Shown here: positions 47,671 to 49,326 of the stretch, piece by piece
How the letters are laid out: each line of letters starts with the position of its first letter
Position numbering within the stretch: the stretch's first letter is position 1
Assembly: GCF_003339525.1 (NCBI RefSeq)
Contig: NZ_CP031124.1
Coordinates: 2,294,001-2,358,000, forward strand
Reading direction: 5' to 3'
DNA length: 64,000 bases
From: Ephemeroptericola cinctiostellae
GTDB lineage: Bacteria; Pseudomonadota; Gammaproteobacteria; Burkholderiales; Burkholderiaceae
Translations under genes and position numbers: made by a program
The notes under the pieces: generated by a model
Seen by the model: the letters and a program-made list of their open reading frames with translations, nothing else
Databases searched by the model: none
Told to the model about the DNA's origin: nothing

Positions 47671-48474
47671 CTATTTATCAGCTACGGGTAAAACATAGTT
47701 ACTAATCAGCAACTCGACCACGTCGTTGATGCTGTCTCTGCAAATGCTGTACTGCGTCGCGACCTCTTTGATGTGGAAGTCGGCGAATAGCTCGCGTATT
47801 TGCGGCGTATCGTTAATGCTCATAATAAATTTGCCTTTGACCTGAAGCAATAGGTCACGCAGTACAGCGAAGTCATCCTTACCGAATATGCCTTTTCCAT
47901 AGACATTCTCACAGTCCCAATATGGCGGATCGATGTAGAAGAATGTATTGGGCTTGTCTAAACTTGGAATCAATTTGGCGAATGATCGGTTCTCAATCCA
48001 CACGCGTTTCAGTCGTTCGTGCGCATCTTTGATATCTTGCTCGAGCAGAGTTAAGTTGAGACGTGAGCCACGCGCTGCGCCAACGCTAAAACATTGCCCG
48101 ACAATCTTGGCTGCATAAGATGTGCGCAGCATGTAATAGAAGCGCACAGCCCGTTGAATATCGGTCAAGATGCGTGTAGGTGTTGCCATAAACGTATCAA
48201 ACTGGTCACGACTGACCAACACTTGCTCAAACGCATCAATAAATGCAGCGTGATGATGCTGAATGACTTTGTACATATTGGTCAAGTCGCTGTTGATGTC
48301 GTTAATTACTTCAACTTTTGACGGTGGCTTACGAAATAACACCCATGCTGCACCTGCGAACACTTCGACATAGCAGTGGTGCGGTGGGATGAGTGGGATG
48401 ATGGTGGCAGTCAGTTTAGACTTGCCTCCGACCCAACTAATTGGGGATTTTGGGCGGGTTTGGTTGTGTGCCAT
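47671..48474 (-). CDS. dam: Phage DNA adenine methylase (Dam family, D12 class)
   Basis: A 267-aa N6-adenine methyltransferase of the D12 class. It has the SAM-binding motif WVGGKSKL near residue 16 (in place of FLRWAGGK), YVEVFAGAAWVLF, INDINSDLTNMYK and the catalytic DPPYWDCEN. The start is set at 48474 by GGAGGT six bases upstream. The gene overlaps com by 38 bp, in the place where Mu has mom. Its initiation region folds into a hairpin (48471-48490). It probably protects phage DNA from host restriction or sets methylation-dependent control. GATC specificity is not shown by the sequence. Confidence 0.9.
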   Translation of the reverse strand: MAHNQTRPKSPISWVGGKSKLTATIIPLIPPHHCYVEVFAGAAWVLFRKPPSKVEVINDINSDLTNMYKVIQHHHAAFIDAFEQVLVSRDQFDTFMATPTRILTDIQRAVRFYYMLRTSYAAKIVGQCFSVGAARGSRLNLTLLEQDIKDAHERLKRVWIENRSFAKLIPSLDKPNTFFYIDPPYWDCENVYGKGIFGKDDFAVLRDLLLQVKGKFIMSINDTPQIRELFADFHIKEVATQYSICRDSINDVVELLISNYVLPVADK

Positions 48475-48634
48475 GAGATACCTCCGATGGTTTGGCGGTG
48501 CTCGATGTGGCACTCAGTTGGTTGATGCACTTACATTTTGTGCATTTGATTTGAAACTCTACTACTTGGCCGAAGCCCAATTTTCTGTTGCATTGATAGC
48601 AACGATATTCTCGTCCTTGCATTTTTAGCACCAT
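48437..48634 (-). CDS. com: Com-like zinc-finger translational regulator
   Basis: A 65-aa protein with a four-Cys zinc finger, YRCYQCNRKLG and IKCTKCKCINQL (CxxC ... CxxC), followed by a Ser/Thr/Pro-rich tail, as in Mu Com. Mu Com binds mom mRNA and opens a hairpin that hides its ribosome site. Here com overlaps the start of the downstream methylase gene by 38 bp, as com overlaps mom in Mu. No clear Shine-Dalgarno is seen for the ATG at 48634; the in-frame ATG at 48622 is an alternative. The role on dam is inferred from this order. Confidence 0.82.
   Translation of the reverse strand: MVLKMQGREYRCYQCNRKLGFGQVVEFQIKCTKCKCINQLSATSSTAKPSEVSHGTQPNPPKIPN
48471..48490 (-). promoter_or_regulatory. 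Hairpin hiding the dam ribosome site and start codon
   Basis: On the minus strand CCAT (48490-48487) pairs with ATGG (48474-48471) and GAG (48484-48482) with CTC (48477-48475), leaving a GTAT loop and a CG bulge. The GGAGG Shine-Dalgarno and the dam ATG are both inside it. In Mu, a similar hairpin represses mom until Com opens it. Confidence 0.6.
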
Positions 48635-48763
48635 AAGTCATGACAAGGTTACAATAACGTCGCCTGTACAGGTGGGGCGTGCCTTGCCGTTGGTGCTGGT
48701 CTGTTCAGCTAAAACGGGGCGGTGGGGTTGCTTCCAACAACTCTGCCGTCGCCGTCTCTTTTT

Positions 48764-48925
48764 TTATTGCTCGTTTACATCATTATCGATATTGTCACCA
48801 CCCAAATCGTCATCTTCTATATAGTAGTCTGCGACTTCGCAGTTGCGGCGGCCACATTTTTGGCAAACGGTGTGCGTCAACTTATAGTGCCACACCACAC
48901 GGCCATGGCAATATCCGCACATCAT
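48764..48925 (-). CDS. Small zinc-ribbon protein (prophage)
   Basis: A 53-aa protein: MMCGYCHGRVVW, then TVCQKCGRRNC, two CxxC pairs of a zinc ribbon, and an acidic tail (EDDDLGGDNIDNDVNEQ). The ATG at 48925 overlaps the stop of the DUF1353 gene (ATGATGA-like junction), so translation is coupled; the longer frame to 48973 is less likely. It is followed by a second four-Cys protein, Com. It may be a Com-like RNA-binding protein or a general phage zinc ribbon. The acidic tail differs from Com. Confidence 0.65.
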   Translation of the reverse strand: MMCGYCHGRVVWHYKLTHTVCQKCGRRNCEVADYYIEDDDLGGDNIDNDVNEQ

Positions 48926-49326
48926 CGGTATGCCCCTCGCCCAAATAAGCGCACCGAGCAGTACATCAACCACTTGCGCCAGCGCGGTACACCCAACACG
49001 CCCATCGCTTCACAAAACACCTCATCTGCCCATTTTTTTGAGCCTATCGCGTTGGTGTACAGATAGTCGTGCACAATGGCGGCTTTGGCGTATTTACCAT
49101 GCGGTGGAAAGATTGACCAAAGCGCACGCGGTACACTGGTTAAATCGGTGACGTAGCCCGCTGGCACTTGAATTTTATCGACCACCAACGACCAATCATC
49201 CAGTCCGATCAATATGCCAACTGAAGTTGGAGAGACATGGTTCGTCCAATATTCAAACGGCTCAACCAACCGCCAACGGTAATTGTCGAGCAGCTCTAAA
49301 ACGGCAGGTGATGTGAATTGGCTCAT
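48922..49326 (-). CDS. DUF1353 family phage protein
   Basis: A 134-aa protein matching DUF1353: VPAGYVTDLTSVPRALWSIFPPHGKYAKAAIVHDYLY. The His-Asp in VHDYLY and the early YVTDLTSVP are the conserved parts. Such proteins are common in tailed phages near tail fibre or lysis genes; the role is unknown. A small lysis-like enzyme has been suggested for the family, but nothing here proves it. It overlaps the zinc-ribbon gene and starts 6 bp after the fibre-assembly-like gene. Confidence 0.85.
   Translation of the reverse strand: MSQFTSPAVLELLDNYRWRLVEPFEYWTNHVSPTSVGILIGLDDWSLVVDKIQVPAGYVTDLTSVPRALWSIFPPHGKYAKAAIVHDYLYTNAIGSKKWADEVFCEAMGVLGVPRWRKWLMYCSVRLFGRGAYR

Follow-up and report, generated by a model that had tools for sequence, protein, structure and literature searches.

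The prophage region described here raises the question whether the translational switch by which Com of phage Mu opens a hairpin over the mom ribosome site has been retained in front of a different DNA modification enzyme. The region lies in a 64,000-nucleotide stretch of the Ephemeroptericola cinctiostellae genome (contig NZ_CP031124.1, positions 2,294,001 to 2,358,000), hereafter the window, in which a com gene runs into a DNA adenine methylase gene on the minus strand (Table 1). RNA modelling favors the view, to which we assign a probability of about 0.7, that the methylase start is locked in the com mRNA and that Com would free it by holding an operator.

Table 1. Features of the com-methylase junction (positions in the window)
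Feature	Position	Strand	Details
com, 65-aa Com zinc-ribbon protein	48437..48634	-	PF10122; phrog_6417 (PHROG 6417) 'translational regulator'
D12-class DNA adenine methylase, 267 aa	47671..48474	-	PF02086; phrog_56 DNA methyltransferase
Methylase start codon ATG	48472..48474	-	sequence
Shine-Dalgarno GGAGG of the methylase	48481..48485	-	sequence
20-nt hairpin over GGAGG and ATG	48471..48490	-	-4.7 kcal/mol, z -1.34
Translation-inhibiting fold (predicted lock)	48468..48513	-	-16.7 kcal/mol, z -3.11
Predicted Com operator GAGUGCCACAUCGAGCACC	48497..48515	-	stem GUGC 48513-48510 / GCAC 48501-48498, loop CACAUCGA

The original prediction for this DNA described a four-cysteine Com-like gene overlapping the start of a D12 methylase by 38 bp, and profile searches bear this out. 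Com, for which an ATG at 48622 is an alternative start, scores 32.3 bits against PF10122 (cut-off 22.9) and has the four cysteines of that family, and the methylase scores 109.6 bits against PF02086 (cut-off 22), its best PDB chain being the adenine methyltransferase DpnII 1 (2dpm_A, E 7e-15). The methylase ATG lies inside com, an overlapping start of the Mu type. The surroundings are Mu-like as well: the tail genes Gp36, Gp44/GpP-like, Gp45, GP46 and Baseplate_J were recognized (Gp48 below its cut-off), and the com-methylase pair is located 3' of the tail genes, as is com-mom in Mu. The Mu transposase family PF02914 had no match in the genome, where control searches were equally silent. Com matched no chain in a PDB sequence search, and as the query of a protein search it matched itself alone. 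Directly upstream of com, positions 48764-48973 (minus strand) encode a second small four-cysteine protein (CGYC...CQKC), for which Pfam, NCBIfam and PHROGs gave no family (E up to 0.001). The same genome contains a second D12 methylase (G000:C1:2588821-2589579, 42% identical) and only one Com gene.

The hairpin originally proposed to hide both the GGAGG and the ATG is present in the sequence, pairing as CCAU..GAG-GUAU-CUC.AUGG from 48490 to 48471. Taken in isolation it was equalled by 25 of 200 shuffles, and thus does not by itself exceed chance. Folding of the minus-strand RNA from 48520 to 48440 did yield a stable structure, but not this one: the 81-nt leader adopts a larger fold at -16.7 kcal/mol, matched by 7 of 200 shuffles, which displaces the hairpin. 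Being weak in isolation and outcompeted by the larger fold, the 20-nt hairpin was rejected as the sole switch. The larger fold, our predicted lock, was the minimum-energy structure in all seven contexts tried (60 to 210 nt), and only 2 of 200 shuffles equalled its 50-nt core (z -3.11). Over the start codon it pairs GUGCCA (48513-48508) with UGGCAC (48473-48468), and at the ribosome site GAG (48503-48501) with CUC (48477-48475), ACC (48499-48497) with GGU (48482-48480) and CC (48495-48494) with GG (48485-48484). L008, the nearest relative, whose methylase is 77% identical, has a longer outer stem of the lock.

The 5' part of the lock overlaps a candidate target for Com. According to the part of Nowacka et al. 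(2019, PMC6483171) accessible to us, a Mu-like Com of Haemophilus sputorum selected RNAs in vitro (SELEX) whose winners had a pair of GAG(N)2CC cores flanking a short stem closed by C-G. Positions 48515-48497 of the window read GAG-UG-CC-ACAUC-GAG-CA-CC, which gives a GUGC/GCAC stem with the loop CACAUCGA; this hairpin (-4.0 kcal/mol) matches the strict pattern introduced below, with a CC-to-GAG spacer of 5 nt as compared with 2-3 nt in the SELEX motif. By analogy with that other Com protein in vitro, we regard it as a putative binding site for the window's own Com. A covariance model of the operator had its best match in the window at 48494-48518 (19.6 bits), which is not independent since the window's own site is among the rows of the underlying alignment (A4). 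In a whole-genome search two other sites scored 17.6 and 16.9 bits and the operator was not among the 150 scored of 485 candidates, so that over a whole genome the 22-nt model lacks specificity. Rfam gave no match at window positions 48000-49000 at E up to 1, and none at gathering thresholds in L090, L061, L165, L221, L084 and L020.

Comparison with Mu (L090, PMC6483171) shows both likeness and difference. In each, com overlaps the next gene, and a hairpin over the ribosome site and start lies beside the operator. The Mu operator, AUGC[CUGCGA]GCAU, shares the codon phase of the window's, and its distance from the com stop is 82 nt (79 nt in the window), with the codons CUG-AAU-GCC as against CUG-AGU-GCC. 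In the window, as in the Mu arrangement, the operator hairpin is 5' of the inhibiting structure, and when it was imposed in folding the 20-nt hairpin formed beside it, which reproduces the Mu layout. However, the downstream gene is Mom in Mu and a D12 methylase (PF02086) in the window, which therefore departs from the Mu switch in this respect, and the Mu lock is adjacent to the operator and hardly relieved in our model (9.1 to 8.4 kcal/mol), whereas the lock in the window uses both operator arms. The suggestion that the Mu switch was kept while the enzyme was exchanged is supported in part, in that a non-mom gene follows Com with a covarying operator upstream of its start, and starts in 63 selected loci are closed beyond shuffles (see below), but the main lock is a larger fold built from the operator arms.

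Because the operator arms are the strands paired in the lock, operator and lock are mutually exclusive. According to the mechanism we propose, the 5' arm would be paired with the start codon region and the 3' arm with the GGAGG until Com, itself encoded by this mRNA, binds to the operator hairpin; the arms would then leave the lock and the methylase start would become accessible. The residual Mu-like 20-nt hairpin would still have to be opened, either by Com or by ribosomes. The methylase would be made late, once Com has accumulated, and, judging from the class of the enzyme, methylated phage DNA may be shielded from restriction. If this is true, a phage can swap its anti-restriction enzyme yet retain late timing. 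In silico, opening the stretch -12 to +3 at the start cost 12.0 kcal/mol with the RNA free and 6.2 kcal/mol with the operator formed; across seven contexts the cost fell from 9.6-12.2 to 5.0-7.3 kcal/mol. For the window taken singly the picture is mixed: the predicted lock is a stable fold, but the opening energy of the start had a z of 0.56 relative to shuffles (p 0.25), and 26% of 77 other starts were at least as closed.

Closure was more distinct when measured over many loci. Eligible were 144 loci whose paired operator was no farther than 75 nt away, with a ribosome-site match of 4 and the start no more than 5 nt past the com stop; 109 of these were unique and 63 non-redundant. The 63 Com-linked starts had a mean opening energy of 10.5 kcal/mol, versus 7.7 kcal/mol for the 77 other starts at the same loci (GC 0.59 versus 0.55); the mean for 34 D12 starts without Com was 5.05 kcal/mol. 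Relative to shuffles that kept the ribosome site, z was 1.46 for the Com-linked starts and -0.36 for 20 Com-less D12 starts (p 1e-6), the 20 being a subset of the 34 from which mainly near-identical ones had been dropped by eye. The excess closure holds separately for the D12, C5, N4/N6 and Mom classes. When the downstream half was swapped between loci, the predicted switch was 1.51 kcal/mol as compared with 3.27 kcal/mol for native combinations (p 0.006), although by class significance was achieved for Mom (p 0.008) only (D12 p 0.15, N4/N6 p 0.16, C5 p 0.66). Natural pairs ranked in the top 5% of swaps at 14 of 63 loci (p 2e-6) and at 7 of 41 D12 loci (p 0.004), the window itself being marginal (0.081 and 0.065). 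A predicted switch of at least 3 kcal/mol was found at 27 of the 63 loci and is thus not universal. In the model this subset looks like a competition switch, and the remaining loci, Mu included, must have another mode of action or be mis-modelled.

The operator recurs near the end of com far beyond the window. Our sample consisted of 277 loci and the window; 15 of these 278 sequences had no Com by the model and were dropped, and the remaining 263 were kept without removal of duplicates, so that some are copies of the same locus; the window itself is L001. Near the com end, 246 of the 263 have a hairpin CC(N)1-9GAG of at least 4 bp, against 454 of 5601 same-strand tiles (8.1%) and 126 of 1315 shuffles (9.6%). 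When pairing was not required, 230 of 479 unique CC(N)2-5GAG sites near the com end had at least 3 further pairs, and elsewhere 425 of 6419. A strict pattern that ignores pairing, GANNNCC(N)2-5GAGNNNC, was drawn up once these loci had been inspected; 236 of the 263 contain it (D12 134/142, C5 33/34, N4/N6 17/24, Mom 13/15), and 226 have a fully paired site. In most Com loci examined, as in the window, Com precedes a modification gene other than mom. Of 177 unique operator sites 152 were fully paired, compared with a mean of 42.5 and a maximum of 59 in 1000 arm shuffles and with 18 of 98 background sites. The unchanged pattern was then applied to 27 of 28 loci fetched later (one had no recognisable zinc finger), a set whose host families include one with two loci (L080, L083) already in the first set; 13 had a site, which was paired in all 13, and 14 had none, while the background was 4 sites, 1 of them paired, in about 807 tiles. 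Com-less D12 homologues (34 measured of 36 given) had no paired operator within 110 nt of the start. Two fully paired operators stand 22 nt apart, in different reading frames, in 92 of 101 two-operator loci, a spacing that suggests paired Com molecules.

The genes following Com were clustered by similarity, with phmmer for D12 and Mom and single-linkage BLAST for the others, and one representative of each cluster was checked in Pfam or PHROGs; start codons were assigned automatically by a rule on the ribosome site. Among 214 loci from Com-based searches, the window's copy included, there were 94 D12, 34 C5, 24 N4/N6, 14 Mom, 13 ABC-GNAT, 3 D12b and 32 other genes; in the full set the D12 count is inflated, since a methylase query contributed 46 of the 263 loci. 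The start overlapped com in 121 of 142 D12, 32 of 34 C5, 18 of 24 N4/N6 and 13 of 15 Mom loci, and in none of 13 ABC-GNAT and 3 D12b loci. The median distance from operator end to start was 21 nt for D12 (n=120), 17 nt for Mom (n=12), 40 nt for N4/N6 (n=16), 43 nt for C5 (n=8) and 193 nt for ABC-GNAT (n=11). In the mixed 'other' class (levansucrase-like, lectin-like and more), where 17 of 32 loci had a measurable start, the operator was 47-58 nt from the start in 12 of 16 measured loci. An operator defined by sequence suggests that the strongest responders would be com-overlapping starts with an operator some 15-24 nt upstream, and the weakest those genes whose start follows com. We give roughly even odds to the broader proposition that Com and its operator are an exchangeable switch before at least four unrelated modification enzymes, in which the operator arms often form the lock, unlike the adjacent lock of Mu, and Com binding and start closure exclude each other in many such loci. 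If it is correct, these loci provide a set of natural Com-RNA pairs.

Alternatively, conservation of the Com protein (LKAES, ERPRAS) or a GC-rich sequence might have produced the hairpin as a by-product: it is located within com, and its distal copy, LKAES-like and in com codon phase 2, encodes a recurrent KAxS-like motif. The proximal copy is mostly in phase 0 and ERPRAS-like, however, and 8 single copies are in phase 1, so that one RNA hairpin encodes three different peptides. Nor does a by-product explain the compensatory changes in alignment A4 (79 of 225 operator windows, that of the window included), where both sides had changed in 74 cells versus 20.7 after shuffling and 94.6% of stem cells pair versus 71.7%; the covariation score was 0.618, with 0.181 for shuffled and at most 0.11 for slid alignments, controls that only partly remove relatedness. 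The tile and shuffle rates of the looser hairpin speak against it as well. Given these backgrounds, the arm shuffles, the covariation and the three phases, coding constraint and base composition were rejected as the cause of the hairpin, and this explanation appears highly improbable to us. An operator at this place also suggests that some of the conservation in the Com tail was perhaps retained for the RNA and not for the protein.

Two other accounts accept the RNA structures and dispute the role of Com. Under plain translational coupling, ribosomes translating com would run through the lock and start anew on the methylase, and the Com protein would be unnecessary. The entire lock is indeed within the com reading frame, the two genes overlap by 38 nt, and in Pseudomonas syringae, according to the accessible part of PMC3899960, a stop codon in com had no effect on expression of the levansucrase gene lscB, whose start does not overlap com. 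Coupling nevertheless leaves unexplained why there should be a hairpin that covaries and carries the SELEX motif of Com, why 34 of 34 Com-less D12 genes have no paired site, and why the hairpin occurs in three reading frames, and we consider it unlikely. Slightly less credit is due to the idea that the operator is real and serves Com's own control or mRNA stability, any control of the methylase being incidental. Retention of operators at distant starts (the ABC-GNAT loci) and at 47-58 nt in the mixed class would fit, but the short median distances before D12 and Mom starts, the closure of starts beyond composition in four enzyme classes and the action of Mu Com on mom all argue against this idea.

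The lscB result also bears on the proposal that Com is a portable module for late control of DNA modification genes. That proposal gains from the presence of Com before D12, C5, N4/N6 and Mom genes, but it is drawn too wide, since bacteriocin and levansucrase genes occur in the same position (PMC6240691, as far as accessible) and at one levansucrase gene the com stop changed nothing. The four levansucrase-like loci in our sample have a start after com and an operator 54 nt away, and the start is predicted to be open in 82-nt context (opening energy 1.2-3.4 kcal/mol), in agreement with the silent com stop. In longer context they were still given a predicted switch of 1.0-4.3 kcal/mol, and a value of 3 kcal/mol was reached at 5 of the 16 loci measured in the mixed class, so that the model fits the silent com stop only in part.

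Exchange of the modification enzyme behind Com is not new: it is apparent from the record of Pseudomonas phage B3, and the non-specific adenine methylases Hia5, Hin1523 and Nma1821 occupy the mom position of Mu-like prophages. The window's methylase is, like these, an adenine methylase in the place of mom. These enzymes are named in the accessible part of PMC5399793. In phage B3 (AF232233) an annotated Com overlaps a Dam-type methylase by 31 nt and the operator is present, as in the window; the listed features include no RNA element, and the predicted switch is slight (5.8 to 5.7 kcal/mol). Com before non-mom genes is likewise partly known, from B3 and from Pseudomonas. The portion of a 2018 review available to us (PMC6240691) reports that genes for bacteriocins, lysis and glycosyl hydrolases are preceded by com-like genes, whose wider role it terms unexplored. 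The Pseudomonas bacteriocin, lysis and levansucrase loci, as far as PMC6240691 and PMC3899960 were accessible, share with the window a PF10122 gene before a non-mom gene; unlike in the window, the starts at the comparable loci of our sample follow com, with the operator 47-58 nt away. In the accessible portions of the literature outside subscription papers, neither conservation of a Com operator nor regulation of other methylases by Com is described, and those of PMC4553209, PMC8541194, PMC12724379 and PMC3447690 contained nothing bearing on the operator.

Several less familiar genes follow Com in our sample. Levansucrase-like genes were seen at L148, L149, L152 and L160 and a lectin-bacteriocin-like gene at L177, all named by resemblance to what is accessible of PMC3899960 and PMC6240691 only. 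A divergent cytosine-methylase-like family with a PPC motif follows Com in small genomes (L313, L322, L323, L324, L325 and L332); L324 matches phrog_2882 and PF00145 (28 bits), and the other five were assigned by resemblance. Finally, an ABC ATPase-GNAT fusion whose start lies about 190 nt past the operator follows Com at L102, L104, L111, L121, L158, L185, L192, L210, L212, L214, L216, L241 and L251; its representative falls in phrog_11143, where no function is assigned, and the fusion is perhaps a Mom-like modification enzyme.
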